From Turnera subulata (taxonomy: Eukaryota > Streptophyta > Magnoliopsida > Malpighiales > Passifloraceae): a DNA stretch of 64,000 bases. Position 1 is the first letter of the stretch, and each line of letters starts with the position of its first letter. The translations under genes were made by a program, and so were the position numbers. This document shows positions 28,648 to 64,000 of the stretch, in pieces. The stretch spans positions 62,001 to 126,000 of the forward strand of contig JAKUCV010005492.1 in NCBI GenBank assembly GCA_028386065.3, in the 5' to 3' direction. Below the pieces are notes generated by a model. That model had not been told where the DNA came from. It searched no databases and worked only from the letters and a program-made list of their open reading frames with translations.

Positions 28648-30915
28648 CTATAGATCTTTATACCTGTAGGCAGCTTCTCCTAAGTCCTTCATTGAGAAAT
28701 TCTTTCCTAACCAAGTCTTTACAGACTGTAGTGTCGGTATATCATTCCCAATGAGTAGAATGTCGTCAACATACAATAACAAGAAAACAATTGTGCTCCC
28801 ACTAACCTTCTTGTAAACACATGGCTCATCTTCATTTTTAATGAAACCAAACTGTTTGATTACTTCATCAAAATGAAGATTCCAACTCCTAGAAGCTTGC
28901 TTTAATCCATAAAAGGATCTTTGCAACTTGCATACCTTGTTAGCATTTTCTGGAGTGACAAAACCTTCAGGTTGTGTCATGTACACATCCTCTAAAAGAT
29001 TTCCATTAAGGAAAGCGGTTTTGACATCCATTTGCCATATCTCATAATCATGGTATACTGCTACAGCCAATAAAATCCGGATGGATTTAACCATGGCAAC
29101 TGGTGAGAAAGTTTCATCATAGTCAATACCATGAACCTGCTTGAAACCTTTCGCAACCAATCGCCCTTTAAAGGTAATCACATTACCATCCATGTAGGTC
29201 TTTTTCTTAAAGACCCACTTGCACCCAATAGGTTTTACCCCTTCAGGTGGATCAACCAAGGTCCATACCTTGTTTTCATACATGGATTCCATCTCCGAAT
29301 TCATGGCTTCTAGCCACTTCTTAGAGTCTGGACCCGTAATAGCCTGCTGATAGGAAGTGGGCTCATCCTCTTCTATGAGCATCACGTCTCTAGTATGAGT
29401 CATAAGAAATCCATATTTCTCAGGCTCATGCCTAATCCTATCAGACCTACGTAGTCCATGTGTTACAGGCACAGGTTTTTCACCCACAACATCTTGTGGT
29501 TCCTGTCCTTGTTCCATCTCAGCCTCTATACCTCGAACTTCTTCGAGTTCTATTTTTCTCCCACTGATCTTTCTAGAAATGAATTCTCTTTCTAGAAAAA
29601 TAGCAGTACGAGCAACAAACACTTTGTGCTCTGCGGGATTATAGAAATAATATCCTTTAGTTTCCTTAGGATATCCAACAAAGAGGCACTTGGCGGATTT
29701 AAGGCCGAGTTTATCTGATGCTTCTCGTCTCACGAAAGCCTCACAACCCCAGATCCTCTTAAAAGACAAATTGGGACGCTTCCATGTCCATATCTCATAT
29801 GGTGTCTTTTCAACCGATATAGATGGAACACGATTAAGTGTAAAGGCAGCACTTAATAATGCATGTCCCCAAAATGAAGAAGGAAGGTCAGCTTGACTCA
29901 TCATAGAACGAACCATGTCTAACAAAGTTCTTTTCCTCCTTTCAGATACACCATTCCATTGAGGCGTACCTGATAGAGTAAGTTGTGATACGATACCACA
30001 TTGCTTTAGAAGATCAAGAAAATCTCGGTCTAAGTATTCACCTCCTTGATCGGATCGAAGCATTTTAATACTCTTGCCGAGTTGATTCTGTACTTCACTC
30101 TTGAATTCTTTGAACTTTTCAAAGGATTCTGACTTGTGTTTCATAAGATACACATAGCCATATCTACTGTAATCATCAGTAAATGTAATGAAGTACTGAA
30201 AACCACCTCTAGCCTGTGTTGACATAGGTCTACACACATCAAAATGTATAAGACCTAACAAGTCTGAAGCTCTTTCACCTTTACCAGCAAAAGGAGCCTT
30301 CGTCATTTTACCTAATAAACATGACTCGCATGTCTCATATGATTCAAAATCAAATGAGTTTAAGAGTCCATCTTTATGGAGTTTAGAAATACGAGTCTCG
30401 TTTATATGGCCCAATCGACAATGCCAGAGATAGGTTTCATTAGAATTGTTTAATCTAACCTTCTTCGTATTAATGTTATAGATTGGTGTTTCTAGGTTTA
30501 GAACGTACAAACTGTTGCTGAAATATGCACCACCATAATAAATATCATTGAAATAAATAGAACAACAATTATTCTTTATTACAAATGAAAAACCTTTCTT
30601 GTCCAGACAAGAGACAGAAATCAAATTCCTGCTTATAGTAGGTACATAATAGCAATCATCAAGTTCCAAAACCAAATCACTCGGTAAAGATAGATGGTAA
30701 GTCCCTACGGCTAATGCAGCAACTCTTGCTCCATTTCCAATGCGCAGGTCTATCTCTCCCTTTGCTAATCTTCTACTCTTTCTCAGTTCCTGCACATTTA
30801 CACAAATGTGAGAACCACATCCGGTATCTAATACCCATGATGCAGAGATAGAGATATTAGCTTCTATAACAAAAATACCTGAAGTGGTAGTCTTACTTCC
30901 CTTCTGTTTCTTCAC
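28648..30915 (-). pseudogene. Copia-3 protease, integrase and reverse transcriptase
   Basis: Open for 755 codons, the longest frame in the window. Domains in order: protease WVLDTGCGSHIC (residues about 27-38, Asp-Thr-Gly intact), GAG-pre-integrase WHCRLGHINETRI (about 165), integrase FITFTDDYSRYGYVYLM and SDQGGEY (first two catalytic Asp) with NGVSERRKRTLLDMVR (catalytic Glu), then reverse transcriptase CKWVFKKKTYMDG, WQMDVKTAFLNGNLLEDV and LLLYVDDILLIGND. The style matches the Tnt1/Retrofit-type Copia polyproteins. The frame ends at a small deletion just after SMKDLGEAAY. Upstream, the gag zinc knuckle has an in-frame stop, so the polyprotein as a whole is dead. Confidence 0.93.
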
Positions 30916-31240
30916 CTCTTCAAGGTAAACAGGGCAGTTACGTTTTCAATGGCCAGGTTTGTTGCAATGGAAACATTGTCCTTCCTTTGCAATACCACCT
31001 TTGGGTTTCAGCACATGGGAACAAGAAGATGCTCATGCACCAAACTTTTTGGCACATTTCTTCTTCTTGTAAAACTTGGCTTTACCCTTTCCTTTGCCTT
31101 TTCCAACCATTAAAATGTTATTGGATTTGTTTGCCTTCATTTGTTGCTCAACTGTTCCTAACATGTTAAGCAACTCAGACAAGGATTTGTCAAGATGATT
31201 TATATTGAAATTCATGACAAATTGGCTGTAACTATCCGGC
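30916..31240 (-). pseudogene. Copia-3 gag, C-terminal part
   Basis: Continues gag after the nested solo LTR: VMNFNINHLDKSLSELLNML, a Lys/Gly-rich stretch, and a CCHC zinc knuckle (CFHCNKPGH, one stop codon in place of an aromatic residue, KRNCP; about 30945-30985). Joined to 34456 after removing the insert and one copy of the CCGGC duplication. Confidence 0.85.
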
Positions 31241-34200
31241 TGAAATGCCCGTGTCCCAATTTATTAATATATAATAGAATTTGAATATAAAAATGACTAA
31301 ATTGCCCTTATCAATCCCGGGACACGAAAATCATGAACTAAACACCCGTATCCCAAATAACCCATTAATTTAATTACAACATGAGAAGTGACCAAAATGC
31401 CCTTCTACCCGAGATACGATATCAATAACATGATCAACATTTAATCAAATAATAAATAATACAATGGAATCAAGTACGCAACGGAAAAACCAAAAATACG
31501 TAGCAACATGTATGCAATGAACCCTATGGATCCGACCCGAGGAGGAAAGCACGGCCACCTGCTGATATGCACCACTGCTCAATGAGCAGTTAACCTGTAA
31601 AAGACTGTGAGGGGGTGAGACCAACCACTATCTCACCGCAAACAAATAAACCAGTGTATACAAATACAAATCAACTACAAGTACACCGGCATCAAGCATC
31701 AGCAACCACAATGCACAAACAAGTCACAATGATCAATACAAGTCAACATCAGACTTCTAACCAACACTGATCTTTAATCACTTAATTATCATTGTACTTT
31801 ATTGTTATTAGGGTTGAATGTTTTATTAGGGCCCTCTACTGTGTGCGTCGAGCTCGGTCCCGTCTCATAAGACAACCAGGGCATAAGCCCAATATAAACA
31901 GGACAAGGCCCAATACAATCAGTGAGAGAGAGAGACAGACAAAGAGAAAGAGGGAGGTAGAAAGGGGGAGATAGAAAGAGGGAGGTAGAACCGGTCATCA
32001 CAGGCCCATATGCTAAACCGCATATACCATGCTATCCCGCATGCAATCCCGAGGGGTTTCTCTTCCCGCTCGAACCAACCGGTCAACAGCCCCACAGTAG
32101 AATTATTATAATTTGTTATTTATGCTTAAAGAGTTTCGTGTACCATTACATACGAATGTCCAGGTTTGTGTGAATTTAAAATCTTATTCTCAAGTCCGGG
32201 CCTCTAGCCCACGGTCCACTACACAAACCACAAAACCATATATCAAGTTGTTTAACACACAAAACAAGTCATGCTCGACAGGCATATTATATCACACTGG
32301 TACACAGTTCACATGATCATGCACACTGCATTAGAGGTATCATAAAAAAGATACAAGGTGTAAGCAAGAACATCCACAAAGCAGGCAAGCATGCATACAG
32401 CATTCAAGACCAAACAAATAATACCACTTTATATACCAAGACAATTAACCGAGCATTGTAGGCAGTAATGCATACAAAGGTTTATAAGTCCTCACCTTAG
32501 CCATAATAATTGTCTCGGAAGCCAAAGCCTCGATCCGCCTCAACATATCCTATTTTAGAACTAAGATACGACCATACATAAGGTCCACATAAAAATATGA
32601 CAAAAGTACGCTAAAATGTGCTTATTCCGATATATCATTTTGAGTCCTTAAGCCCAGTCATTATCCTCAAGTCCTTTGATCTCAAGCCTATATTAATAAT
32701 AATTATCAGGTTAAATTATCCATTGGGCCTAAGGCCCAAATCATGCCTTAATCTTATTTAGGCCTAAAGCCCATATTAAATCAATTACACTTTATTAGGC
32801 TTAAAGCCCAAACCATGTCCAAGAATCATAGAGTTAATGGGCCTGGGCCCGGCCCGTCATAGACAAACTAACTCGTAAACCCGAGCCTAGTATTTCTGGC
32901 CTAACGATAGCACGTGCGTCGGACATGTACCGGCCACGCCACTCAACTCTCCAAACCCGATTTCCACTAAGTCTTTTTATTTTATAAATGTACATGTACT
33001 CGAAAATACCGGAGCATATACATAAAAATGAAAACGAGACTAAACCGGAATTACCGTGTAAAAGCTGGAAAGAAATTCTGTCTGCCGGAACTGAACCAGA
33101 GCACTCGCCGGAAAATTCCCGAGCTCGCCGGATTCCGGTCAGACCCGCCGGAAGAGTGACCCGAGACGTCGAAAAGAAAACCACAACAAACTGCCCAACC
33201 CGAAAGACAACCAATTCGTCAAAACAACCAACACAAAAAACGAAATTGAAAGGAAGCAGGAGGAAGGAGGTCGCATCCTTACCAGGAAAACCCAAATCCT
33301 CACTGTCCCCAGTTCAATTCTGCTCGGAACTGTGGCACAACACCCAAAATCAGTCCCTCACACCTTCTGTCCGTGAAAAACCCGAGCGAACACCACTGCT
33401 CGTCACCATCACTGAACCATCAGGCAAAGATGAAGACAAACGAAGAAGAGAAACAGAGGAGCGGCTGCAGCCACTTACCGGAAATCTAACCCCCACTGGC
33501 GGTCACTCGCCTGAACCCAACTCGCAACCGAGCCCTGTAACAGCACTGCCGAACCAACCACCAGCAACCACCACCATCAAACCATCCACCACTGAAACCG
33601 CCATCAACAACACCATCCCGGCCAAACACAACGAGCAGAAGCACCAAACGTCACCAACACGAACTGCAACATCACCGCCACAAGACAACCGCATCCACAA
33701 AATGCAAACCAAAGAAATCATCACAAACACACCCTGATTCGACAAGAACTTGAATTGAAGAGAAAGAGAAGAAGCAAAGAGAGTGGCGGGGCAAGCTTAC
33801 CAGACAGCGACACAAGCAACAACAGCAGCCCCGTCCTTCAATGGTGGCGGCGGCACCACGAAGAAGAAGAAGAACGGATGGTGGCGGCAAAAGAGCGAGA
33901 AGAGGAGAGGAAGAGTTGGGCAGTGAAGGAAAATAAAAGTAAAGAAAGAAAAAGAAGACAAAGAAGAGAGGAAGAGAAATTGGGTGTAACCGATTGGGAG
34001 AGAGAGGTCGTGCAGAGAGGAAGTCGGGAGGAAGCTCGTGGGCAGCGAAAGAGAAAAGAAAAAAGAAAGGAGAGAGAGGGAAGAAAAGAAAGAAGAGGTT
34101 AGGGTTTGGCCAGCCGAGGCCAAAACGACATCGTTTTGGTCTCTGGCTTGGTCAACCCGCCCTTCTTGGTCAAAACACAGCCCCTCAGTTGTGTTTAATG

Positions 34201-34455
34201 TCCTAGTACTCCCAAAACTACGTAGTGTCATACCATACTATGTCAAAGTTTGTGTTTCACACCAAAACACAATTAAATACTAAAAGAAACATGATTAAAG
34301 ATTAATGCCAACATAGCTGTAATATTCTTAAGGAAATAAATTATTTTCCTTAACCCTAAATTCCCGGAACACACCTCAAGCGTAAAAATGGAATTAAATT
34401 TCAAAAATACCGAAAATTATATAGAAATTAAATACTGAAAATTCGGGGCGTTACA
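31241..34455 (-). mobile_element. Solo LTR, Gypsy-type, family S1 (copy 1)
   Basis: 3,215-bp insertion in Copia-3 gag with exact 5-bp duplication CCGGC (31236-31240, 34456-34460). It starts TGAAATGCCCGTGTCC and ends GGGGCGTTACA. There are no internal LTR copies, primer site or pol, so it is a solo LTR left by recombination. Orientation (-) is chosen because the start then reads TGTAACGCCCCGAATTTTC, common for plant chromovirus LTRs. It includes a GC-rich segment (33050-34150) whose long ORFs on both strands have no family features. A related copy is at 50490-53555. Confidence 0.87.
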
Positions 34456-34984
34456 CCGGCAACGATTGCAGGACTAGATCAACAGCTAACTCCTTATGCA
34501 AAGGAAAACCTAGACCCTCAAGGCTCTCAATGTATCCAATCATTTTGAGCACATGAGGTCTCACCAGTGATGACTCAGCCATCTTGCATTGGAACAAAGC
34601 CTTAGAGGTCTCATACCTCTCATGCCTTGCTTGCTCTTCAAAGAGCATTTTCAGGTATTCGATCATATCGAAAGCACCCAAGTTCTCATGTTGCTTCTGA
34701 AGCTTAGAGTCCATGTTAACAAGCATAAGGCATGCAATATCCAATGCATCATCAACATGCTTCTTGTAAGCATCTCTTTCTGCCCTAGGAGCATTAGGCG
34801 CGGGTTCATTTGGAACGAGCCCTTCAAGGACATACAACTTCTTTTCTTGTTTGAGGACTATCTTCAAATTGCGATGCCACTTTAGGAAGTTATTCCCATT
34901 CAGCTTTTCCTTCTCAAGGACCGATCGCAGAGATTGTGTTGTTTTGTGCCATGATAACTCTACAACATTGATCAACTTGCACAA
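34456..34984 (-). pseudogene. Copia-3 gag, N-terminal part
   Basis: 177-codon frame. From SLRSVLEKEKLNGNNFLKWH it has the plant Copia gag (UBN2) pattern, with QARHERYETSKALFQCKM and VLKMIGYIESLEGLGFPL. The first 15 residues before this block are atypical and the true start may be internal. Broken after LQSLP by the nested solo LTR. Confidence 0.87.
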
Positions 34985-36163
34985 ATAAGAGTCATATATT
35001 CATAAAATCACTTAATAAGGAATTTTATTAAATGATGCTTCTACTACATAAATCAAGATAATTATGAGTAGGCCAAGATCCATATTTCACTACAAGATAA
35101 GTCAGCTTTGGCTGATCACTTATATCATAGTTATTTAAGTAGACAACTCTTGTCAATTACATCTCATGTAACTCTTGGATAGTTGAGTGAACAACACTTG
35201 TTCTTGTCTATCTCACAGACTTAGCTCAACTCCTTGCCTCTAAGTCCTCAATCCTATTGAGAAGACCTAGTTAAGTTCAACCCATAACAAGCAGTTCGGA
35301 TATTACAATTATCCCGTCGCACCTTGCTAGGATAAATATTGGCACCTTGCTTTGGCAAAACCTACCAAGTATTGATCTAAGCAATGATGAGTGCTTATCA
35401 TGGAAGGCAACACAAGAGGAACTTAATTTTTACATCAACATATTATTCCTATACATCTTATGCATGTTTTTGATAAATCATATATTAATGTTTTGTAAAA
35501 TTGGAAACCAAAAATACATAAGAACATCGATGTCGTGAGAATCTGATTCTCCCAACTACTTGGCAGTGTTTAATAACATCGATGTTTAACTCTTGACATC
35601 GATGTTTAACTTGTGATCAAAGACTGACTAGCTCCTCGATCTAGGAAATTTCTTGTGGTGAATAGTGCCCGTACAAGAAGTGAATTGAACTGATTCGATA
35701 ATTCCCAGGAAAGATGGCGTAGCCGATCTCCTAAGACAGAATTATCATTCCAAGATAAATCCCCAAGAAAGACTGGAGAAATAAAGGTTCACTTAAAACC
35801 CAACCACCTAGACAGGACTCACTTGCACAGTGTATTAATTCACAACCTTGCACCTGACAAAGGACGACAATCGTACTAGAACGACAATCGATCTATACGA
35901 AAACCGACAATCGATTTTCCTTGTCGAACTCATTCGACTTACTGCCAAAAACACCTTTATTGATATCACATACCAATCAAGTACTTGTTGTCAAACACTT
36001 TTGACAAAAACAAACCTCAACATATATCACACATACAAAAACAAATTCAACATATCATGAACATGCTACATCACATACAGCATATCATATATATCAATAT
36101 GAGCATATCATACATATGCACAACAAATTCGGTTTAGCGTTTCACAAGAGGCTCCGCCACCAC
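34985..36163 (-). other. Copia-3 leader, with palindrome cluster
   Basis: 1.2-kb region between gag and the 5' LTR, without coding signs. It holds three copies of the palindrome AACATCGATGTT (35523, 35575, 35595; one exact, two with one mismatch) and three copies of CGACAATCG (35865, 35882, 35905). The stretch next to the LTR is rich in CATATCA repeats (about 36020-36120). Confidence 0.6.
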
Positions 36164-37250
36164 TGTTAGTAACCGGACATGCAAACTTGACAATCAAAAT
36201 GCAGCGGAAAGACCCGGTACTCATGGAGGATCCAAGTGAAGCTAACTAAACCGAATAACAATTTTTCGTACCTTGCTTGGTTGAGGTCTTTCACCCAACT
36301 GTAGTGTAGAATCAGCAAGAACCCGACAAGAAATCCGGCTCCTCTACGATATCCACACGAACCGTTGATGACTGCTAGCAACCGTCTCACGATCACTAAC
36401 CCGAGCACTCCCGAACTGCAGTGCTAGCTGCAGAATTTTCGAGAGCTACAAACTAGTGTTTATATGTGCTTCTTTCTTTCTCAAAGAATGAAGTGTGTAA
36501 TCTAAATTGTGTGTGAATGTTGTGTGTGTTGATAATCTGATTATCAAGCCCTATTTATACATACAATTAATGCATAGATTAATGAGACAATGGCCAACAT
36601 CATCATGCATTAACCATCATGATTATACTTTAAGCCTAATCATATCTCCACTATGTCTTAATGCCCCACTAAGCATTAATGGATGCTCCACTAAGCATTA
36701 ATGGGATATGGCATTAATTTTGGTTCAATAATTCTGATAATTAGTGAACCAAATCAGCAAAACGACCCGGTCCAACCATGGTCCACCCACCTGGTCTAAC
36801 CACGGTCCAACCATAGTTCAACCACCAGCTTGAATCAACAGTTCTAAGTGTGTGACCCTGTAGGCATTTGTAACGTTTGACAATAGTTGTAAAATCTCAT
36901 TTTACAATTATAAACAATGAGCGGTGTCTAGCAACACATCATTGCTACCCAAACGACAAGAACAGTACTGATTCATTATGCCTCGGAAACATGTCATCGT
37001 CCTTTCGTCCCATTATCAAGATTAAACAGAAGACATGGAAAATGTCAATCTCGTATATGTTTAATTTTAGTTTCTTGATCCCCGAGTTAACTGTGTAAAA
37101 CCGAATACTCATGATATCACCACATCACATAATCCGAGCGTGGCCACGCATTTAGCAGTTCAACTCTATCAAGAGGCCCATCCGATAATATACCCGTTAT
37201 ATGGGTTGGACGAATCCCTTCTTGATCGATCAAAACCCACTACACATTAC
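36164..37250 (-). repeat. Copia-3 5' LTR, part a
   Basis: Matches 26252 onward; broken after CACATTAC by the LARD-like insertion. The rest of the LTR is at 44883-45320. Confidence 0.9.
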
Positions 37251-39662
37251 TGTCACGCCCCCGCTAAGCGCGACCGGCCAGGTGCCATGTGCACCCATCA
37301 CGTGCCACAAGGCACCCAAAGGCCTTTCATCGACACAACCAAAAGCTCGTTGCCTCTGCTCGGCGGGTCACCAACCAAGAAAATGCGCAGCATAAAAGGA
37401 AGCAACAACAACGAATGCAAAGGCAATAAAGATGATAAAAAGTACCAAGACTCATTTATAAAGACAACTTCACTAGTGTCATTAATTCGTTGCTACAAGG
37501 GGCACTAACTCTTACTTACAATGACACAACCTCCATGTAAAAATAATACAATAATATAATTAAAGAAGACCGACTCGGCAATACCCATCGACCTACTTCC
37601 CATACTCTCATTCTTGCACCTGTAAGACATGGGGAGGAAATAGGAGGGGTGAGTATAAAACTCGGTAAGTAAATAGGCCATGCAAGAAAGCAACCACATA
37701 CTACACACAAGGCTGGACATGGGCAACACACAGTCATGCAACACATACAGTAATGCATAATGCACAAATACCGGGCACTCACGCCATGGAACAAGCACGA
37801 TCGTTTTACTCCTAGCGGCCATCTAGCACCGCAAGGCCCGTCAAATAATCACGACCGTTTTACTCCAAGCGGCCATCTAGCACCGCAAGGCCCGTCAAAT
37901 TATCATCAATATGGTAAGTGCCACATCTTAAGCACTACCTGTGCACCACCTCCCAACTGGCCAGTGGGTCCACAATCACAAGCACAATCAAGGCAAACAC
38001 ATGCCATCCCAAGCACATCAGTGCGATGCCAAACATCAGCACAACAAGTGCAATGCAATGATGCCAACAAGGGCAGCAAGTATTTCCAAGCACACAGCTC
38101 AATCATAATGTACCAACAAGTCACCAATATATCACAATTACGCATAAATAACCAACAAGGCAACAAGTAGCCATGATCAGCCAACAATGGCTAGTTAACC
38201 AACAATGACCAGCAAGGTGACCCCGCACAAATACACACACAGCAAGCACACACAAATGGCCTTTCGCCCAACAAAGGGTGCACAAGCAATCACTACCCGC
38301 ATAACAAACTTACTTACCATCACCTAGGTATTCCTAAACCAATTCCTCTCCTTTATAGCCTTTAGGCCTCTTGGAACCTCAGTCCCTGTTTTAAACACAC
38401 AATTAGACATCACAATCAATCCACAGCAATAATAGCTTGTGAAACACAATCCTACCCACAATACTTATCTTTTCTCAATTCGGGCAGAAGCTGCCCTGCA
38501 CCAACAGAAACTTCACCGAGATTAAACAGGAAGCTACAGGCCGACTCAGCCTTGGTCATAAATATAAAGGATGTATCCCTGTCTCTTAGCTTTCCAGAGA
38601 CACCAAGAACACTCAATTCCAAGCTTTCTAGCTCCAGTTATCGTTCCTATATCAACTCTGGGTCTAGCAGCAGGTCTGCTGCAGAACAGTGAACTTGGAG
38701 AGTGCATAACTCTCTCCGTTCAGCTCCAAAATCCACCAAACCGGTTTCCAACTAACGCTATGGAAGTTAGCTAACTCTGGATTTTGGTTTCACTCAATTC
38801 TAACCGGTGGTTCGGCCGAAATCCCTATTTTAGTGGCCAGGGGTCTGTCTGGCCGAGAGCAGAACCCCTAGGCTCACTTCTCCCCTTTCCCCACTTTTCT
38901 CTCTTTCTCTCTCTCTTTTCTCTCCAGGACCTAGCCACGAATTTAGCTGATAAGAGTGCGGGAGAGGTGCTTGTTTTCACCTCTTAATCCCTGCCCAAGT
39001 AGGTGAGTCACCACCCCAATTGCCACCAATACACAACTAGGTGCCACTTGCACCTAAATTGCCACCTCGTGCTTATTTTCCATCCAATTGGTTTGTGGCA
39101 ACCAACCTGCTAGCTTTCACACCCAAACCACCAGAAGCTTATTATCGAGCCACATGTCTCATCCTAATTGGTCGGTTTGGCCAATTACGTATGTACCCTC
39201 ATCGAGCCCAATTGCGCACCGACGGGCACACCATTGCCCCGGTTGTGCACTATTTCGCACCAAATCGAGCCAACCGATATCTCCATTGGCCAATTGTGCC
39301 TCTAATGAATCTGTTACATCAAGTAATCACATTCCTATCATTTCCGACCATTTATTGGCCCATTAGACAAGTCGAGCAATCGGGACACCAAACTAGGCCA
39401 ACCGTGCCATCGGATCACTACGAACCCACTTGAGTGCACTAGTCCGAGCCTATGCTAACCATTTCATCTCAATCTAACATCAACACATATCACCAAGCCA
39501 TAACCTAACCTATACCAACTTTTACACCAAGAATTTGAACATCCCTCACAAACTCCCGAATATAGTATCCAACCTACACGAACATCACGGGAGGACAAGC
39601 AACACCCGACTCTCTTCATGCAAATACTTCTCTATATTCTAGGGTGCACCTGGGGTATCACA
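37251..39662 (-). repeat. 3' LTR of LARD-like element
   Basis: 2,412 bp. Contains a near-perfect tandem repeat of about 57 bp (about 37795-37905, each with GGCCATCTAGCACCGCAAGG). The segment 38070-38698 is absent from the other LTR. Confidence 0.88.
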
Positions 39663-42600
39663 TCATCCCCTCCTTCAAAGAATTTCGTCCTCGAAATTAG
39701 ATGCCACTATGATCTCAAAGATAACATCAATCCTTATATGTAATTTCCGATCATCTTCTCAAATATACCCATGTGCCGTCCTATTGTTCCTCAATCATTT
39801 CAAGCTCTACCTTTAGTAGATCATTCAACCATAACTCAATCCAGTATATCTCCGACTTGTTTACCTCGAAATCCATACCCAAGTTCTACCTTAGCTTTTA
39901 AATATCTCCCAAATTATGGTACTTCAATTCATCATGCTTTTTGCACTTGTAATTCTCACACCAATCTATTCCACATGCCTTGGCGACTCAATCGTAATCT
40001 GGTAGATTATAGTTCTCTCAACTATCTATCACTTCTGACCACGGTACAAGTGGATAGGCTAAACGGTACTAATGCAAAACTTGCTCAATTCATTCCTTTA
40101 AAGATATTTTCCAAAACAATAATTTGTAAACCATTATAAACTGTGGCGCCACGTAGTCAAAGTAGTAAAACTTGCAATGTACCGTTAGCCTTCTAAATGT
40201 AACCATATATGCCTCCACTTAACTCTTCTCATAACACATCTCTCATTAAGCTACTACAATACATACACCCATTCTCTCTTCAGTAATGGCTTCTACGTCA
40301 TATTCACTCCACTAAAGCGCACTACTGGCACACTACTATGCCAATTGGCCAACAAGGCCAATTACCCCAACGGAGCCACAAATTATACTACTCGCATACT
40401 AGTACTCGCATGAGCACAACAATTATACTAACTAAACTAACAAAATATCCACTAGGACCAATTGGACAACCGTAGGCCCAATTGCTTCTCAAATAAGAGA
40501 GTCGTGCTTTTACTGCATCATTTCGTCTATACCTCAACTTCTTACTACGTCTTTAGATAATTCAAACCCTAATCCTAGTATCATTCACCAAACAGTGCTA
40601 ACCTCATGTGTTTCCTATGACGAGATACCTTAAACTTCTTTTGAATTTAGATAATCACTTATCAAAAAAATATATATAGCTCAATACTCATTTCATGCGC
40701 TTCAACATACTTAGCACTTCAAAATCTAACTCCAAACAATACAAATCTAACTCTAAACAAATCAAAGAGGTTAACTACACTCTTGTGTATACTAATTGTT
40801 CATAATGTTCATAACACATCATCTTCCTTCATTACTACTTCAAACGCTTATAAGGCTTAACATAATCATTATTATACCTTAGTCACAAGCTCTAAACAAA
40901 AACTCCATAATCACAACCTATTCCTTCACACTGTACTCATCCTTAGATAACACAAGATTATCCATTGCACTTTACTTGTGAGTGTCAAGCTACGGCCTAA
41001 AAAATTGCAAACCTACTCTTGTATACTTAGACATCCTCCTCTCAGAAAATTTTCCTCCAATACATCAACTCTTCGCTCCAACTATCTCGATCCAAGGTTG
41101 AACTTAACCCCACTATCATTTACACATCTTTGACTTCACAAGACCAATTATTTCACTTTACCAAATGCTTTATTCTCAGTTTCCCAAACTGCATATGATT
41201 TTATCCGCAAATTTCTTGGCAGTATACCAAGCCATCACAAGACTATCATAACCAATTCAACTTACACCATAGGTACTTAATAAGGTAACAATAGACTTTC
41301 TTCCCCAGCAAGGATGCATAATAAGCATTTCAAATATGAATACCTTATTCACCATGTAGCTATGGACCTTTATATAGTATGAGAAATCTATATATCAAGC
41401 AATAATTTCATATTATCAAAAACCATGTAATACACATGCTCAAATGTAGTTTCAGCAAAATTTTATATATAATACACTTAGTTCAACAACAACATAATCA
41501 TCTCATCGTGTTTCTCTCTTCTCACGATCTAGATCCCCAAAAGACTAAGAAACATATTACCCCCACAGAAACATTTTTCCTCCACACAAAAATCATGTAA
41601 GACAAACACAACACATATTGCAGATAATTCTAAAACATTTACATCTCAAGCCTTCAGCATGCATTACCCCATTAAACATCCATGAAACAAGTGACCTGAA
41701 TCTCATCCAACTCACTATCACCACTCTTATTTGCTCACTCAAGCACCTAAGCTAAATGCACCTAACCATTTATTCCACAGTAATCACGATCTCCAAATTT
41801 TTCCTTCAATTACTAAATCATGTACTTATCATATCTTTAACATATAACATAACTTCATATGTACTCTTACAGATCCATTGTTCATCCACATGACCAGGGA
41901 ATACCTCACAAGCCAACTTTAAAATAAGTATATTATCATGTCACTCTCATCATCAATATCTCTTAATTATTTACCATACTAACACTTTCTATAACTAATA
42001 TCTTAGTTATTATTCCTATCATAAAATGCCATCTTATCTATCACCGAGATCAATTTTAGTTAATCAAACAAACAAGTTACCAAGCACCCAGGGTATATCA
42101 GCAACATCATGTCAATCGGACATATAACATTAAATCTCCAAGCTAACCAAACCAGTGATGACTTTAATTGTAATTATCACCCTTAGATGATTCTCTAATA
42201 TACTAAATAATCAAATTCAAAAACAATTTAAAATTTCATAACCTCTGCCTCAAAGGGAAATTATGTCAAAGTATTAAACACATGCAACTTAAATCCTGAA
42301 GATGCAAACATCCCATACGATTATTCGTAAATTTAGTTATTAAATCATATTAACCTTCATCATCACAGTTCTATTTGATTAAGAACTCAAACTATAACTT
42401 GATCAGACTAAAATAACTTTATAATCCTATACATGTGCATCCTTTAGGCCAAAGGAAACCAAGTTAGTTACCACTTAGCTCTAACCATGTAACCAACCAG
42501 AATGCAAAATTCTAGTTCTAAACACCCTTTCCACATGTATAACGTCTAGGCCTTCCTACATATGAAGTCAGCAACAATTAATTACATATCGGACGTTTCC

Positions 42601-43078
42601 TAAGAAACAGCCATGTCACAAGATTATATTCTCATATCTAGAGCATTTTCCTCCTAGCTTACATCTTTAGGCAATCCACGCATGCTTGTATACTCTTAGT
42701 ATGCTCACAGCCAAAAGGCCTCAACTATATGTTCAGCAAGATTTTAACCATATTTTTCACAATGGAATGTCATATTTTCACAGTCACAAACATAATACAA
42801 CATATAAGATAAACAAAATACAAATTTGTGACACACGTCTCTCACCAACCAACGGTCTCTAACTTGATGGGTACTAGCCACTAGACTCAACACCCTACTG
42901 CCCCTATAGTAAGAACATTACAACCACGATTTGTAATTATATATATTCCACCCATACGACAAATATGACACCTAGCATCCTCACGAAAACATCCTCCACC
43001 ACCACAACTATTACACTCTACGACATAAATGTCAAGACACTAAATTCCTGCAAAATAATCATGCTTTGCTACCACAAC
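39663..43078 (-). other. Interior of LARD-like element, non-coding
   Basis: 3.4 kb, AT-rich, dense in stops on both strands. The one ORF above 100 codons (39771-40139, +) has no recognisable feature and is antisense to the element. Only the decayed pol end near 39663-39710 can be named. Confidence 0.65.
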
Positions 43079-44882
43079 TGTCACGCCCCTGCTAAGCGCG
43101 ACCGGCCAAGTGCCATGTGCACCCATCACGTGCCACAAGGCACCCAAAGGCCTTTCATCGACATAACCAAAAGCTCGTTGCTTCTGCTCGACGGGTCACC
43201 AACCAAGAAAATGCGCAACATAAAAGGAAGCAACAACAACGAATGCAAAAGCAATAAAGATGATAAAAAGTACCAAGACTCATTTATAAAGACAACTTCA
43301 CTAGTGTCATTAATTCGTTGCTACAAGAGAAACTAACTCTTACTTACAATGACACAACCTCCATGTAAAAATAATACAATAATATAATTAAAGAAGACCG
43401 ACTCGGCTATACCCATCGACCTACTTCCCATACTCTCATTCTCGCACCTGTAAGACATGGGGAGGAAATAGGAGGGGTGAGTATAAAACTCAGTAAGTAA
43501 ATAGGCCATGCAAGAAAGCAACCACATACTGCACACAAGGCTGGACATGGGCAACACACAGTCATGCAACACATACAGTAATGCATAATGCACAAATACC
43601 GGGCACTCACGCCACGGAACAAGCACGACCGTTTTACTCCTAGCGGCCATCTAGCACTGCAAGGCCCGTCAAATAACCACGACCGTTTTACTCCAAGTGG
43701 CCATCTAGCACTGCAAGGCCCGTCAAATTATCATCAATATGGTAAGTGCCACATCTTAAGCACTACCTGTGCACCACCTGTGCACCACCTCCCAACTGGC
43801 CAGTGGGTCCACAATCACAAGCACAATCAAGGCAAACACATGCCATCCCAAGCACATCAGTGTGATGCCAAACATCAGCACAACAAGTGCAATACAATGA
43901 TGCCAACAGTGAACTTGGAGAGCGCATAACTCTCTCAGTTCAACTCCAAAATCCACCAAACCGGTTCCCAATTAACGCTATGGAAGTTAGCTAACTCTGG
44001 ATTTTGGTTTCACTCAATTCTAACCAGTGGTTCGACCGGAATCCCTATTTTAGTGGCCAGGGGTCTGTCTGGCCGAGAGCAGAACCCCTAGGCTCACTTC
44101 TCCCCTTTCCCCTCTTTTCTCTCTTTCTCTCTCTCTTTTCTCTCCAGGACCTAGCCACGAATTTAGCTGATAAGAGTGCAGGAGAGGTGCTTGTTTTCAC
44201 CTCTTAATCCCTGCCCAAGTAGGTGAGTCACCACCCCAATTGCCACCAACACACAACTAGGTGCCACTTGCACCTAAATTGCCACCTCGTGCTTATTTTC
44301 CATCCAATTGGTTTGTGGCAACCAACCTCCTAGCTTGCACACCCAAACCACCAGAAGCTTATTCCCGAGCCACATGTCTCATTCTGATTGGTCGGTTTGG
44401 CCAATTACGTATGTACCCTCATCGAGCCCAATTGCGCACCGACGGGCACACCATTGCCCCGGTTGTGCACTATTTTGCACCAAATCGAGCCAACCGATAT
44501 CTCCTTTGGCCAATCGTGCCTCTTATGAATCTGTTACATCAAGTAATCACATTCCTATCATTTCTGACCGTTTATTGGCCCATTAGACAAGTCGAGCAAT
44601 CGGGACACCAAACTAGGTCAACCGTGCCATCGAATCACTACGAACCCACTTGAGTGCACTAGTCCGAGCCTATACTAACCATCTCATCTCAATCTAACAT
44701 CAACATATATCACCGAGCCATAACCGAACCTATACCAACTTTTACACCAAGAATATGAACATCCCTCACAAACTCCCGAATATAGTATCCAACCTACACG
44801 AACGTCACGGTAGGACAAGCAACACCCGACTCTCTTCATGTAAATACTTCTCTATATTCTAGGGTGCACCTGGGGTATCACA
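43079..44882 (-). repeat. 5' LTR of LARD-like element, internally deleted
   Basis: 1,804 bp. Same ends as 37251-39662, but 629 bp are missing at GATGCCAACA|GTGAAC (near 43907), with 4-bp microhomology AACA at the breakpoint. It also has a 12-bp local duplication of GTGCACCACCT (near 43768-43791). Confidence 0.88.
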
Positions 44883-45320
44883 ATTACGTCATATACCCAA
44901 TGATTACCCTTACGTCTACTCAGTTACGAGTGACTAGGAATAATATCAAAGTATACGACTCATATGTTGGGAACCTTGATAATCTCAGGTCTAAAGACAA
45001 TACATATAAGAACCACTAATGACAATCATATAACGTTCCATGTAGGGTTCTTATGTGGGTCGGTCCAGTCCACAAGTTCTCTAACTTGTACCTGTATGTA
45101 GAATTTATATCTCATATAATTCTCAACATACGCTAGTCTTAATTTATTATTACAACCCATCCATAATAATAATCGACTAGGGACATTCAAGATTATAAAA
45201 TATTCTAGGGTTATAAATATGTGCAAGCGTTTATCTCATAAACATATTTATTGGAATAACCTTAATGTATTTACATGACTATGTACAATCATCCAATGAT
45301 TGGCTTTTGGGCATATTACA
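44883..45320 (-). repeat. Copia-3 5' LTR, part b
   Basis: Remainder of the 5' LTR after the LARD-like insertion; starts with the duplicated ATTAC and matches 27347-27784. Confidence 0.88.
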
Positions 45321-45748
45321 CTAGCATAATATATATATCAAATCGATATTAGATAGTTTTCTACTTGAGGAGAGTTCATTTTTTATCGGAGTTCCATGCC
45401 TCACGGACGGCCATAAATATAATGATCTTCAAGCTTGCCCAAAGATATATAGTCATGTTTATCCGATAATAATACTATTTAAAATTAAAAACTTACAACG
45501 CGATTGAGAAATGACTGGCGACCTTGACTTGTGGTTGTAAATTCTATAAAATCAATTAGCAACTGTGTTACCTTGTTTATTTATTTATTTTGGGTGAAAA
45601 AATGAGCGCAACAGATAACCCTTAGTTTGGTTTGGGTGCGCCCACAGCGTCCATAAATAATATTTGCATGAGGGAAGTAGCAGGAGGATCCTTTAAAACA
45701 TAAATTCTGTGCTGCCCTGAGATAGTAAAGATGAGCCAAGTTTTCTTT
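45321..45748. other. No gene recognised
   Basis: AT-rich spacer between Copia-3 and the second Mutator-like element; nothing recognised. Confidence 0.5.
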
Positions 45749-57523: not shown

Positions 57524-60490
57524 ATGAGTGTTCAAGAGGAATTTATGTCATCAAAAAGGCAAAAAGGCAAAAGTGGAGAAAATCTGGTTTCTATGGAAAC
57601 CATCCATCTGTGTGCTACACTCGTCAGGAGAGAAGATCTAGTTTCAGAAAAACCATCTGGTTGTGTCCAACGGTTAATATTCAGCAGTTACATGGAAAAG
57701 TACAACGGGGCGTTTTGAGTTCTGCAAAGGTGGTTAGTTTTGAACTACCACGTCTGACAAAAGCGAAAACGTTGGAAGAGGAGTTAATGGTCATCAACGG
57801 CTCCTTCAAACCTATGAACTCCTTAAACAATCTCTTTCCTTCATTATTTGAAGTTTTCATCATTAACTCAAACAATCAAAAATCCGGCATTATCTCTCTC
57901 TCACATAAAAACCTCTCAAACTTCAAACACTTCAAAGAATCCATCTTCANCCCCCCCCCAAAACACCTAAAACTGGAGCTACATCGAAGCTTAAGGGACG
58001 GACCATGCTTCAAGCAGCTAGAGAATAGAAGGGAAAAGGAATTAGGTTGAGCACTGGTCCAGACCTGACCTCGACCAAGAGGAATGTTGCTGAGTGCTTA
58101 GAAAGTTTTAGAACTCATGTGCCTCCCGATTTCATCAAAGAAGCTTTGGAGAAGGCAAAGGCACAAAAGCAACTTGAAGTGGAACCCAGCCTTAAGACCA
58201 CTACATGCAACCATTGGCAGGAGTCCAATCCACCGGGTAATATTTTTGACTCAGGTGTTCTACGTGTTAATCCCATAAGTTAATTTATACCCAACACTTT
58301 GGTTTCTACCCAAACTACACCTATAGGACAGAAACCCTTATCAACTACAAAAGAGAGGGTGTTAAAACAATCTGTTGATGTGGATAAGTCAATTGTTGAG
58401 TGCGTTGCTAAGGTTGATTCTAGTCCTTTAATTGATGTCAATACTACTCAAAACAGTTTATTGAGTAAGTTGAAAGTACCTTCAGGTCAAGATGCTAGTG
58501 TTTTTCTTGAGATGAAGAAGAAAGAGATCGGTGGCTTGTTCCCTAGATTGTTGGTTGATGAATCTAGACCATCTATGGGTCCAAGAGTGGCTTTAACTGA
58601 GAAGCTTATGATGGCTGAGTTGGAGCAAGTCAATGTGGAAACCTAGAAACTGAAAGATTTGGTTGCTCTATAAACAAAATATGCGGCCAAGGAAGCAAAG
58701 ATTGTGGTTGTGGTTCCTAATGAAACCATGCAGAATGAGAAGAACCAGCACGAGAAAGAGCAAGTTAAGAAGGAACCTATGGTAGATTTGAATGTTGCTC
58801 TGACTGAAGGTTCTAAAGATGATGGCATAACCTTGACAGAGGTGATGAAGATAGCTGAGGAAGCCGCAAAAGTAGCCCAACAACCATAAGTTGATGATGT
58901 GGTGGTCTAGAACAAACTAGCAGACAAGCAGAATGACCAAGACAAAGAAGATGATTGAGAATCTGAGTCTGACAACAAGAAGGCTTTTGAAGAGAAGAAA
59001 GATGAAGAACAAGAGCAATCCGCTTTTGTCAGAAAACTAAGAAGAAGAAGAAGGTTGTGGTTCTTGCAAAAACCACACAGCTGGTTTTGAGGAAGCCAAG
59101 TACCCATTCCCAGTTCAAAACCGTGAGCAAGAAGAGTGGCAAGCAAAAGGCCATTTAGAATAACATTGATGATTCTGATGGTGATAACAATTTGTCTAAG
59201 GCAGTTAATAAAGAACGAGAGGCTGAGAAGTCTAAGAAGAAAAAGAGAACCGATGAAGAACATGATGTTGATGATGGTTCTAAGAAAACCATTAGTGAAG
59301 AACATGAAAACAATGATGATGCCGAAGATGAACATGCTGATGATAGTAACCGTGATGAAGAAACAGATGATGATGAAGATGTTGGTAAAGCATCAGATGA
59401 TAATGAGGATGATGAAGAAGAGTATGACCAAGAGAAAGTGGAAGAAGAAATTAAGGAGGATCCGGCATATGATGAGGAAGAAAAGAAAAATGAAAAAGAA
59501 AGTATTGTTCCTGTGCTTCTAAAGAAAGAGGCCAAAACTGACTTAAAATCCAAGAAGAATGGAAAGCCAAAGAAGAAAGAGAAAGAAGGTGATGAAGTAC
59601 TAAATTTTATGAACACCTTCAGTGTGAATCTTGATGACTTTGAAGCTCTTCGGGTCACATAAATTCTAAGGTAATTCAAGCTTGATTACTTGGCCACCTT
59701 GAAGAAACTGGCCTATGAGAAGCTAGTGAAGGAATTCTACACCAATATGCTTGTGAAGAAAGATGCTGAAGGGAATGTGGTGTACTTCACGACCAAATTA
59801 AAGGGAAAATCCATAAAAATTACTGCTGAGATAATCCAAGATGAATTGAAGCTCAAAAAGGGGTCTATCAAGCACTATGACACTTTATCCGGGAAACCTG
59901 TCAACATAGCTCGTACTCCTAACTTTGCCCAACAAATGAAGTTGATTTTTGGGAATGCGAGAAAGAAGGGAGACTACAGGGATGCGAATCCACTAGCAAG
60001 AGGACTTATGTTTATGCTTACCAGGGTGATTTTGTTGCGACCATGGCACAAGACCGGTACCAAAACTCAAGACTTGTGGATTCTCACTTGTGTGAAGAAG
60101 AAGAGTTCCAATTGCTTTGCTCATCTGATCCTACATCACATGGCACTCTATAGGGAGCGAAGTCATAGGCTGCTTATTACTCTTCTTGCAAAGAGATTTG
60201 GTGTGAAACCATCCAAGTCGGATATTCCTATTCCCATTGACTCCATTAATAGGAAAACTTTATCCAATATGGGGATAAAACTGAATGTTGAGGGTAAGTT
60301 TCAGGTCACAAAGGCTATTGATGGCAGTGGAATGGATGCAAAGTATGATGACCTTACTACCCGAGTCAATTATGTGGAGAAGGATGTTCAAGCTTTGCGC
60401 GAGGATTTGAAGACATTTGAAGCCAATGTGATGGAAAAGCTTGACCAGATTATCTCTGCTATGTCTCCTACCGCCTCTGATGAAGAATGA
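57524..60490 (+). pseudogene. Third ORF of SIRE-type element (env-position, acidic), partly open
   Basis: Downstream of RNase H and before the polypurine tract, where SIRE/Maximus elements carry an extra ORF sometimes called env-like. Open pieces: 58299-58646 (115 codons), 59192-59662 (156 codons, more than half Lys/Glu/Asp) and 59690-60490 (266 codons). The last has YEKLVKEFYTNMLVKKDAEG near its start, resembling plant proteins labelled putative plant transposon protein, and ends in a heptad-like coiled coil (residues about 218-258, TTRVNYVEKDVQALREDLKT). No signal peptide or convincing membrane helix is visible, so an envelope function is not supported. Stops near 58270, 58645, 58888 and 59160 break it. 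One N lies at 57950. Confidence 0.7.
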
Positions 60491-61110: not shown

Positions 61111-61128
61111 CATCAAAAAGAGGGAGAT
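61111..61128 (+). other. Polypurine tract of SIRE-type element
   Basis: CATCAAAAAGAGGGAGAT directly before the LTR start TGTTG at 61129. This matches the strongly conserved plus-strand primer of SIRE-type Copia elements. Confidence 0.8.
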
Positions 61129-61655
61129 TGTTGTGTTAAATATGGGCAAATCACTCTCTTAAGCTTAATTAGTAATTTAATCATGTTTAACAATAGTTTA
61201 CGATTGATTTTGATGACTAACAAACCACTTGGATAAATGCTTGTATACATGTATTGTGTTGATTAAGTATACAAGAGGATGCATGGTTTCAAGAAAACCA
61301 TATGCTTATGAAGGATGGTTTTCGAAGCAACCACATGAACACGAGTTGTCATTTATCACATTATTTCTGCAACTTGTGTGTGGTCCTTCCAGCATTAAAA
61401 CTCCACTCCTAACGGCCAATATTGGAAAACAAGCAAGAGAAAAGGTTCAGAAAAGTGCAGAAGATGTTCTCTCTTCACTCCCACTTCACTTTAGTGAAGG
61501 TGGTCCCCTTAGTGGTCCAAACTTTCCAGATTTGGTATTTCTTTGCAATCAAGGAGTTAACAAGCTGTTGTGGTCCCAACTTGAATTGCAAGTGAACTGA
61601 AGTCAACTAAGGGATTCAAAGAGTCGTTGAGACACTTCCCCCCAAAACTCAAAAA

Positions 61656-61663: not shown

Positions 61664-62404
61664 AGGGTTCAAAATACATCTGAAGATAATTCTAGCCATT
61701 TGAGCAAATCTGAGTTTGAAATTTGAGCTTACACATTGTTCTGGTTTCACTATTTTATCCAAATCCATTGAAAGGTTAGTTTATAAGCAAGACTTGGTTT
61801 AGTTTTGCTAGGAATTCAAGTCTAGGATGTTAGGAACAATAGACTTAAGCTAGAGGGGGGGTGAATAGCTTATGATCGAAAATTAAAAACTTTGCAGGAA
61901 ATAAGTGCGGAATTAAAAGAATGAAGGATACAAGAGATTTATCCTGGTTCACACACACTCTACTAGTGTGGCTAATCCAGCCCTTCAAGTCTCACTTGAA
62001 GATTTCACTATCTACGTTAAGCTTACGGGTGCTTAACAAACCGCTACAACCTAGGAATTCTAGTCACAAGAATCCTAAACCCTGAAAGTTCAAGTCACAT
62101 GAACTTCAGCTCTCTTGCTTGAAGATACCTCACTTCAAGACTTCTCACACAAGAAGATATACTCCTCTTCTTATGAATCTAACCAAGGGAACTAACCTCC
62201 CTCAAGGTGTGTATAACAACACAATAATCACTCAGAACAAAAGACTCTCTCAAAGAGCAGGTGTGAGTGTACAAGTGAAGCTCTAAAAGGCAACTCTCAA
62301 ATCCTCAATAGGATATTGGCTCAACAAAGATTTGATGAATGTATGAATTGAATGCATGTAAGTAGAGAGTTGATTCACTTTTGAAACACAGCTAAAAATG
62401 CTCA

Positions 62405-62412
62405 ATTTATAG
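62405..62412 (-). promoter_or_regulatory. TATA box of solo LTR S3
   Basis: Minus-strand CTATAAAT followed by TGAGC. The nearest palindrome of the array is 93 bp upstream. Confidence 0.5.
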
Positions 62413-62505
62413 CTTTGAAAAGTTATAGAGCCGTTTTAAATCCACCCAAAAACAGCCTTAAACAAAACATAGTGGGTGCTGAAAAGTTGTCTGCTACAAC
62501 GGCAA

Positions 62506-62966
62506 AACATCGATGTTTTAACTCTAAACATCGATGTTTTAGCCAACAATTTTAAATTATTGCTCCAACGGCTAGTAGAACATCGATGTTGCATTTTAGA
62601 ACATCGATGTTTTCGTACTCAACATCGATGTTCTTCAATTCAACATCGATGTTTTTTGGCTTCGCAAAAATATGATGAAAAAGGGTCTATGCCAGAACAT
62701 CGATGTTGGAAAATGGAACATCGATGTTTTGTGAAACATCGATGTTTGATCAGCCAACATCGATGTTTTTTGGCTTCGGCAAAATTCTATTTCTAAGACA
62801 AGTTTTCATGAACATCGATGTTGGATTGGAAACATCGATGTTTTGACCAACGGTCACAAGAACATCGATGTTTTGTAGTCCAACATCGATGTTTTAGAGC
62901 TACTGCCAATATTTTGAAAAACTTGAAAAACAGAACATCGATGTTGGCTTTCAGAACATCGATGTT
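62506..62966 (-). repeat. Array of 16 identical 12-bp palindromes
   Basis: AACATCGATGTT occurs exactly at 62506, 62527, 62579, 62600, 62621, 62642, 62696, 62717, 62735, 62756, 62811, 62831, 62861, 62882, 62934 and 62955. Start-to-start steps are 21, 52, 21, 21, 21, 54, 21, 18, 21, 55, 20, 30, 21, 52, 21. The array has a weak higher-order unit of about 117 bp holding four palindromes and a shared TTTTTTGGCTTCG block after two of them. Spacers otherwise differ. No function is known to me for this motif in plants. Confidence 0.97.
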
Positions 62967-63063
62967 TTGGACTAAAAACAAATCTTTTTGTTTGAAATCG
63001 TGCTAATGAATTGTATGATTGAAATGTGTTTTGTTTGAGCCAATGCCTAAGAGAAGTTGAGTG

Positions 63064-63209
63064 TTTTACCTTGTACAAATGGGTCCTAACTTCTCTTGCT
63101 CTTCTTTGCACTTCAACTCTTGATCATATCTTCACTTGAGTACTTGATCACTTTGGTTGAGTGCTTGTTTGCTTGATTTCTTTTTGCTTCATCTTGGTTA
63201 TGATCTTGG
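63064..63209. repeat. 146-bp repeat left of sequencing gap
   Basis: Identical to 63484-63629 as far as can be read. Confidence 0.95.
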
Positions 63210-63483
63210 NNNNNNNNNNNNNNNNNNNNNNNNNNNNNNNNNNNNNNNNNNNNNNNNNNNNNNNNNNNNNNNNNNNNNNNNNNNNNNNNNNNNNNNNNNN
63301 NNNNNNNNNNNNNNNNNNNNNNNNNNNNNNNNNNNNNNNNNNNNNNNNNNNNNNNNNNNNNNNNNNNNNNNNNNNNNNNNNNNNNNNNNNNNNNNNNNNN
63401 NNNNNNNNNNNNNNNNNNNNNNNNNNNNNNNNNNNNNNNNNNNNNNNNNNNNNNNNNNNNNNNNNNNNNNNNNNNNNNNNNNN
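63210..63483. other. Sequencing gap (274 N)
   Basis: Run of N between two identical 146-bp sequences inside solo LTR S3. Confidence 1.
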
Positions 63484-63629
63484 TTTTACCTTGTACAAAT
63501 GGGTCCTAACTTCTCTTGCTCTTCTTTGCACTTCAACTCTTGATCATATCTTCACTTGAGTACTTGATCACTTTGGTTGAGTGCTTGTTTGCTTGATTTC
63601 TTTTTGCTTCATCTTGGTTATGATCTTGG
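63484..63629. repeat. 146-bp repeat right of sequencing gap
   Basis: Identical to 63064-63209. Confidence 0.95.
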
Positions 63630-64000
63630 TTTGTCATTTATCAAAACCTGTAATAAGTGAACCATGAAGACATAGGTTCTAACATAGGATTAGATTTGAG
63701 GGTAGTTTAGAGCTTAGCTTGTGAAAAACTTGTAAAGGTTTGAGCTTAGTCTAGCAAAGCTTGTGAATTGTAAAGGTTAAGGTTGAACCCGCAAAAACCT
63801 AAGGATAGTGAGTGTTTGAAATCCTAAAGGAGGATCCTTTAGGTATTGGAGATACCTGGTGAGGGGGAACCACTCTAAAAATCGCTTGTGTTCACTTCTC
63901 TTCCCCAATTTACTTTTGTTCTTTGTTTGAATCTCACTACTACAGTCCAACACGTGGTTTCAGCAGAAACCATATCCGAACTTAAGTTAAAAAAGTTTAA

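Follow-up and report, generated by a model that had tools for sequence, protein, structure and literature searches.

The stretch analyzed here (the window, 64,000 nucleotides of the Turnera subulata genome) holds within 461 bp sixteen copies of a single perfect 12-bp palindrome, and it raises the question of what kind of element carries them, what has kept them identical while the sequence between them changed, and whether they are best understood as docking sites of a protein, as nucleic-acid structure or as the by-product of repeat duplication.

Anatomy of the palindrome array

Exact copies of the box, AACATCGATGTT, number 17 in the window: 16 at 62506-62966, as the initial annotation had it, and one at 35575; none occurs in 100 dinucleotide-preserving shuffles of the window. 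The steps from box to box are 21, 52, 21, 21, 21, 54, 21, 18, 21, 55, 20, 30, 21, 52 and 21 bp. Eight of these are exactly 21 bp, not nine as first counted, while the four steps of 52-55 bp and those of 18, 20 and 30 bp are as originally listed. The boxes are laid out as a four-box module that repeats roughly every 115-123 bp, in the register c d / a b c d / a b c d / a b c d / a b, a pattern that the earlier description lacked:

62506..62966, minus strand: array of 16 exact AACATCGATGTT boxes, palindromic, on the LTR sense strand (exact count, step list)
62506..62538, unstranded: boxes 1-2, module positions c, d (box count, module register)
62579..62653, unstranded: boxes 3-6, module a-d (box count, register; BLAST match to the next stretch, 77%)
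62696..62767, unstranded: boxes 7-10, module a-d (box count, module register)
62811..62893, unstranded: boxes 11-14, module a-d (box count, module register)
62934..62966, unstranded: boxes 15-16, module positions a, b (box count, module register)

All 192 box bases of the array are identical and the spacers are near random between modules. Twenty pairs of same-register spacers average 48% identity, against about 35% (short spacers) and 48% (long spacers) after shuffling, in agreement with the spacer divergence that had been claimed. The positions of the boxes in the window alone give a period peak at 10.4-10.5 bp (vector strength 0.79 and 0.78). The array, with a G+C content of 36%, has a CpG observed/expected ratio of 1.42, versus 0.28 and 0.14 on its two sides.

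The array lies in a solo Sirevirus-type LTR

The carrier of the array is a minus-strand LTR that has TG...CA ends and is flanked on either side by the target duplication TAGGA. Its borders have no PPT or PBS, and it is therefore a solo LTR, of a Sirevirus-type Ty1/copia element:

61828..63684, minus strand: solo LTR, Sirevirus-type Ty1/copia, TG...CA; length includes an assembly gap (ends, 5-bp target-site duplication, PPT/PBS junctions of relatives)
61823..61827, unstranded: target-site duplication TAGGA, left (sequence)
63685..63689, unstranded: target-site duplication TAGGA, right (sequence)
63628..63646, minus strand: TTTTGATAAATGACAAACC, the right-hand arm of the inverted repeat found around the PPT of related elements (comparison with relatives)
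62406..62411, minus strand: TATA box, TATAAA within GCTATAAATTG, lying downstream of the array by 94 bp, read in LTR sense (sequence)
61849..61867, minus strand: poly-C motif CACCCCCCCTCTAG, resembling the 'integrase signal', C-run 27 nt from the LTR end (comparison with the printed motif)
63210..63483, unstranded: 274-N assembly gap inside the LTR (sequence)
63064..63209, unstranded: 146-bp stretch with an identical copy at 63484-63629 (sequence repeat)

The identical 146-bp duplicate flanking the gap is probably a scaffolding artefact, and gap and duplicate together inflate the LTR to 1857 bp; two other copies in which both the start and the end strings were found measure 1427 and 1548 bp. 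In LTR sense, the start is followed by the TTTTGATAAATGACAAACC arm, the array, the TATA box, the poly-C motif and the end, with the array beginning 299 bp into the LTR (gap and duplicate excluded from the count). The minus-strand TATA string is GCTATAAAT, and the 5' end of TATAAA is at 62411. Hence, the earlier assignment of the array to an LTR is supported by the ends, the target duplication and the junctions of relatives, as is its U3 position upstream of the TATA box in the window LTR; the box lies on the side that had been given for it, 94 rather than 93 bp away.

Membership in the Sireviruses was examined using the junctions and coding regions of related loci. Their PPT junction reads AAAAAGGGGGAAAT/TG and is bracketed by TTTGTCATTATCAAAA / TTTTGATAATGACAAA or close variants; this AT/TG junction with its inverted repeat was found at 11 of the 30 loci related to the window LTR (L033-L062) as well as in L024 and L032. 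The PPT octamer is AGGGGGAA, the terminal-A variant that is known for Tnd-1 and ToRTL1 (PMC2829016). At the 5'LTR junction Sireviruses have CA/ATTGG with the PBS TATCAGAGC (PMC2829016); ATTGGTAGCGGAGC follows the LTR in 14 of 29 tabulated loci, its PBS differing from the printed one at two bases. The Sirevirus poly-C integrase signal lies on average 21 bp from the LTR end (PMC2829016), and the CACCCCCCCTCTAG motif of the window LTR corresponds to it. The reverse transcriptases (RTs) of L024 and L029 cluster with that of the envelope-bearing element of the window (support 0.995; ten sequences, no named reference RT). The large gag with a downstream coiled coil is seen in the relative L029, not in the solo LTR itself: its gag frame runs 648 codons from stop to stop, with a zf-CCHC at 269-284 and coiled-coil-type matches, below the cut-off, at 329-436.

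In Sireviruses, the palindromic repeated motifs (RMs) are described as at least 8 palindromes starting 200-400 bp into the LTR, spread over 300-500 bp and upstream of the TATA box (PMC2829016). The array of the window, with 16 copies, a start at 299 bp, a span of 461 bp and a TATA box 94 bp beyond it, conforms to each of these. RM clusters also precede ENV in envelope-bearing Sireviruses (PMC2829016), and two relatives have the box in the corresponding place. In L032, the array at 7241-7700 is followed by an envelope-like ORF at 7792-8913 with PF20167; the only two named homologues of this protein come from Turnera subulata (Passifloraceae), at 60% identity. In L029, an array at 9570-9944 after the pol ORF is followed by the L063 ORF (284-628), which has no Pfam match; over 110 aa it shares 95% identity with P0122, one of these Turnera subulata homologues of the L032 envelope-like protein.

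The solo LTR itself sits antisense inside the 3'LTR (from 61129) of an envelope-bearing Sirevirus, which has PPTs at 60902 and 61043 and a terminal PPT with AT/TG at 61119-61130:

59690..60490, plus strand: envelope-like ORF of the interrupted Sirevirus (Pfam match to PF20167, 39.3 bits, under the cut-off of 45)

This interrupted element has imperfect palindromes of its own, TGGTTTCnnn(n)AAACCA, at 60774, 60811, 61284 and 63955, forming a second, different repeated motif of the window around the Sirevirus linker and 3'LTR. Elsewhere in the window, 26252-45323 holds nested LTR elements: 26252-27787 resembles 36164-37255 plus 44879-45323, and a further element seems to have inserted between these similar stretches.

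Box and spacer conservation across LTR copies

The check proposed in the initial annotation, a comparison of substitution in palindromes and in spacers across LTR copies, shows the boxes to be conserved far more than the spacers. Copies were chosen by a box-free part of the LTR (61828-62480): 40 of 3,209 candidates were scored and 30 loci cut, the window's own included, of which 29 were aligned, L062 being left out as its TATA string was not found. Among the aligned boxes of these 29 copies, 457 of 464 are exact. Variants shared by at least two copies occur at none of the 192 box sites, as against 113 of the 267 spacer sites (Fisher 7e-33, where shared variants count inheritance and not separate events). 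The U3 before the array has such variants at 42 of 87 sites and the downstream part at 40 of 675, a low value that partly reflects the choice of copies. Per-site diversity is 0.0032 in boxes and 0.145 in spacers.

Variants confined to a single copy behave differently, being found at 9 of 192 box sites, 30 of 581 sites of the downstream flank and 50 of 267 spacer sites; six of the nine in boxes fall in one box of one copy. Thus, inherited change is absent from the boxes while recent change reaches them about as often as the flank. Single inserted copies are unprotected (9/192 versus 30/581), and selection therefore acts on the replicating lineages.

Outside this family the boxes do vary. In 19 other arrays of at least 3 boxes, from nine other regions, 128 of 179 boxes (called with up to 2 mismatches) are exact, and the array in the old LTR of L029 retains only 4 exact boxes of 16, with changes mostly to C at position 12.

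Across the 29 copies from L033-L062, the U3 spacers differ by a median of 17% and the R-U5 by 2.4%, a contrast that is partly an effect of choosing copies by their R-U5; either recombination uncouples the two halves of the LTR or the U3 evolves faster.

Helical phasing and genome-wide occurrence

We examined the spacing of the boxes in 13 arrays, hand-picked as non-duplicates, with 169 boxes (127 exact, the rest with up to 2 mismatches, a calling rule that hides strongly changed boxes) and 156 steps. The lengths concentrate at 20-22 bp (86 steps), 30-32 bp (6), 42-45 bp (12), 51-55 bp (46) and 74 bp (2), with the remaining four at 18, 18, 19 and 58 bp; none of the 156 measures 23-29, 33-41 or 46-50 bp. 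The arrays use several different helical multiples, with steps near 2, 3, 4, 5 and 7 turns. Vector strength at 10.5 is 0.83 for the sample and 0.59 for the 14 distinct lengths above 25 bp, for which a random-length test gives p 0.001. As modules duplicate, the steps are not independent and a Rayleigh p is not a fair probability. The best scan period is 10.8-11.1 in the 13 arrays versus the 10.4-10.5 of the window positions. The helical phasing first proposed for the window is hence also seen in the wider sample.

This phasing rests on the sampled steps together with pair counts from the whole genome, which was searched over 518.7 Mb in 7,125 contigs. There are 76,101 exact boxes, compared with 63 matches of a reversed-pattern control. 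Pairs with 5-20 bp between the boxes number 34,748 (control 16), those with 8-10 bp 30,184 (control 15), and those with 39-43 bp 20,973, including pairs that span a third box (control 5). In nine fetched regions, picked for holding box pairs, 126 of 129 exact boxes have another one no more than 120 bp away.

At five places of the genome (C4457, C757, C2454, C1944 and C1712), matching LTRs form pairs only about 3.2-3.4 kb apart, which suggests short non-autonomous elements carrying the array. In public contigs, box pairs turned up in 1 viral and 7 bacterial stretches: four are from the uncultured bacterium Kiruna_bin-04925, one from a Tannerella bin, two from actinomycete contigs and one from an IMG/VR contig. 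Judging from the neighborhood of the boxes alone, we consider them unrelated. The Kiruna_bin-04925 loci (L004, L006, L007, L008) are regular 21-bp CATCGATG repeats, possibly coding, and the Tannerella stretch has similar ones.

The box in other Ty1/copia lineages

The nine fetched regions are those around the first-listed box pairs of the genome, and among them the box occurs in three groups of copia elements. The first comprises the Sireviruses (the window, L024, L025, L029 and L032). The second is the C8/L031 lineage, in which the PPT AAGGGGGAG abuts TGTTGATT with no AT. Its LTR is 563 bp long in one copy. A TATA-like string is seen at 234-290 in 4 of 6 LTR stretches and was not found in the other 2, the first box is at 417-501, and the boxes reach to shortly before CCAACA/ATTGG, so that the array is downstream of the TATA box; L030 has this ending too. 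The third group is the lineage of the pol ORF at 28648-30915 of the window and includes L028, whose 19 boxes (3121-3777) follow the LTR end and PBS, near 2800, and precede the gag-pol region. Downstream of the array, 84-87% of the DNA is shared by L028 and the window element, which has a relic of the array in the corresponding place:

35523..35606, minus strand: 3-box relic of the array, with one exact box and steps of 52 and 20, within the 5' leader of a different copia element (match to the place in L028)

RT identity is 65-77% within the Sirevirus group, 45-51% from it to group 2, 34-39% to group 3, and groups 2 and 3 are 40-43% identical to each other; the L028 stretch that was fetched ends before the RT. 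The window LTR matches L026, L027, L028, L030 and L031 only inside the array. The arrays thus occupy four sites among the elements: the U3, the late LTR, the 5' leader and the region before the envelope-like gene. Since the array is downstream of the TATA box in one lineage and in the 5' leader in another, the original label of U3 enhancer, apt for the position in the window LTR, is too narrow overall.

With respect to the origin of this distribution, the L028 spacers show a similarity to antisense spacers of Sireviruses (12.3 versus a null of 8.7, sd 0.4). For C8, L031 and L030, the excess is absent in L031, reaches about four sd in one C8 copy and is mixed in orientation, and on account of this inconsistency we rejected a single homologous 73-bp unit across all lineages. 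It is conceivable, though we regard it as doubtful, that at least three Ty1/copia lineages exploit a single DNA-binding factor through one phased array at the four sites, with the array spreading either as a cassette or by convergence, and that this factor may be element-encoded, acting in trans against silencing as a shared public good. If such sharing is true, retrotransposons would converge on, or trade, a single control switch.

A putative binding-site array and its alternatives

What, then, might the boxes do? We infer that the array is probably a cis-regulatory palindrome cluster of the Sirevirus LTR, its boxes being putative sites of one symmetric DNA-binding protein that are kept by selection on replicating elements. 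The pattern of change in the 169 boxes of the 13 arrays points in this direction: 31 of 47 box changes affect the outermost pair (9 at position 1 and 22 at position 12), which suggests a consensus site (A/G)ACATCGATGT(T/C). Outside the box, there is symmetric avoidance of T at -1 (16/169, p 3e-11) and of A at +1 (15/169, p 2e-10). The -1 and +1 flanks are complementary in 45 boxes versus 42.3 expected, and hence give no sign of pressure for a longer palindrome. Going by these sequence patterns, a dimer in contact with about 14 bp would account for the flank rule better than would selection for a longer hairpin, and the dimeric DNA-binding protein proposed in the initial annotation, as a symmetric protein site, appears to be the best fit.

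According to this interpretation, each 12-bp box would be a docking site for one symmetric (dimeric), sequence-specific protein that recognizes the core ACATCGATGT and tolerates changes in the outer bases. The boxes are mostly paired about two turns apart, with the longer steps near 3, 4, 5 or 7 turns, such that the bound proteins would face the same side of the DNA and be able to act together. Binding would promote transcription of the element or keep the region open; replicating elements under selection would keep the boxes as the spacers drift, and inserted copies would decay like other DNA. In the Sirevirus U3, the phased sites would serve as an upstream activating array. In two lineages the boxes are not upstream of the TATA box, so a plain promoter-proximal activator fails to account for all positions; those in groups 2 and 3 would need an activator, insulator or anti-silencing factor working from either side. 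Our literature search found no transcription factor for the box.

The source of such a protein could lie in the elements themselves. In this alternative, which we rate as unlikely, a transposable element would encode the binder, an anti-silencing factor working in trans as VANC does for VANDAL elements (VANDALs are DNA transposons), with the other copia lineages hitch-hiking by means of the motif. VANC proteins target short motifs within non-coding tandem repeats that are dense and diverge rapidly (PMC5735166), and the VANC6 motif is also present in AT9TSD1, which is unrelated to VANDAL (PMC5735166, PMC10398659); here too the motif is dense, the spacers diverge and three lineages share the box. 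Moreover, the array is just upstream of the envelope-like ORF in two Sireviruses (L032; L029/L063), but an array before ENV is a trait of Sireviruses with other motifs as well (PMC2829016). The elements yielded no candidate for a DNA-binding protein. The envelope-like protein was considered as the binder and abandoned, as its model was unusable (pLDDT 38, from two homologues and a 4-row alignment).

The palindromes might instead matter as nucleic-acid structure, with box pairs forming transcript hairpins that affect RNA function or, as has been suggested in maize Sireviruses, supply small-RNA silencing; we hold this to be rather improbable. The array does fold far better than shuffled sequence (RNA z -14.9, DNA z -16.6), and in maize Sireviruses the palindromes are small-RNA hotspots with predicted structure (PMC10760457, PMC5311732). 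Most of this folding comes from the boxes: when they are held fixed and the spacers shuffled, the sense strand of the window is unremarkable (25 of 200 shuffles fold as well), but its antisense spacers beat all shuffles (0 of 200 fold as well). Across 17 arrays with 60 shuffles each, z is -2 or lower for the antisense strand in 11 (range 1.87 to -5.87) and for the sense strand in 4 (range 1.06 to -3.77), seven of these arrays being of one LTR family and hence not independent. The antisense excess may itself stem from flanks capable of G-U pairing, present at 42 of 169 boxes on the antisense strand versus 6 on the sense strand. Selection on hairpins would tolerate compensatory change, yet the 29 copies hold no inherited box variant, and the palindrome is not lengthened by its flanks. 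As the main cause, RNA structure is weakened by the shuffles with fixed boxes and is kept as an alternative because of the antisense folding; protein binding and structure could also hold together.

A neutral tandem repeat, identical through recent duplication or homogenization, finds some support in the four-box module and the partial spacer similarity between modules, but is very nearly negligible given the near-random spacers between modules beside 192 identical box bases, the restriction of shared variants to spacers (113 of 267 sites and no box site in the 29 copies), and the presence of the box in lineages whose fetched stretches match the window LTR only within the array.

Comparison with known systems

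The array is of a kind already in print, namely the palindromic repeated-motif cluster of Sireviruses: as here, these are many near-identical dyad palindromes in the upper half of the LTR, upstream of the TATA box, with 8 to 32 copies per element (PMC2829016). Their core is CGG-CCG, with Tnd-1 as the sole exception (PMC2829016, Bousios et al. 2010), whereas the core here is ATCGAT. RMs are reported there as absent from classic copia elements, whereas we find box arrays in two non-Sirevirus lineages, that of C8/L031 and that of L028 and 28-36 kb of the window. The 2010 authors found no common factor for the palindromes and called for promoter tests (PMC2829016). Helical phasing and box-versus-spacer rates, as described here, were not found in the portions of that report available to us, and the literature searched did not associate the AACATCGATGTT box with retrotransposons, its letters turning up in two papers whose titles lie outside that field. 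Relative to that literature, the ATCGAT box at this scale, its phasing, the box-versus-spacer rates and the sharing beyond Sireviruses are new.

Maize Sirevirus LTRs likewise have palindrome clusters in the regulatory region, with fast evolution and predicted structure, but with a different motif, CACCGGACNNNGTCCGGTG, that is discussed in terms of small-RNA hotspots (PMC10760457, PMC5311732); a passage citing Bousios et al. 2016 notes high variability and rapid evolution of the palindrome-rich region (PMC5311732 / PMC10760457). In ONSEN and other Brassicaceae COPIA elements, clusters of host-factor sites were gained separately by several families at different LTR positions (PMC5059998), although there the factor, HSFA2, is known and the motifs are nGAAn (PMC5059998). 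The VANC target arrays share with the present ones a dense short motif, diverging tandem repeats and occurrence of the motif in an unrelated element, but the VANC motif YAGTATTAY is arrayed in one orientation and has a known element-encoded binder (PMC5735166).

One exact 12-mer that is conserved, phased and present in tens of thousands of copies offers a clean bait for naming the factor. The 76,101 sites could titrate a factor or provide enhancers to host genes.

The nearest printed motif is that of Tnd-1, a tobacco Sirevirus with eight 100% identical copies of ACAATCGATTGT (PMC2829016). It is the only RM in Table 3 of that report with the ATCGAT core found here, and the PPT of Tnd-1 ends in A rather than G, as in the relatives of the window LTR. 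Its flanking triplets are ACA/TGT, as opposed to AAC/GTT here, and it is listed without CpG islands (PMC2829016). A search of this genome for exact pairs of the Tnd-1 box at N5-20 gave 0 matches. Three GACAATCG repeats at 35866-35915, two of which extend to ACAATCGAT, lie in the same leader as the relic array and are close to the Tnd-1 motif.
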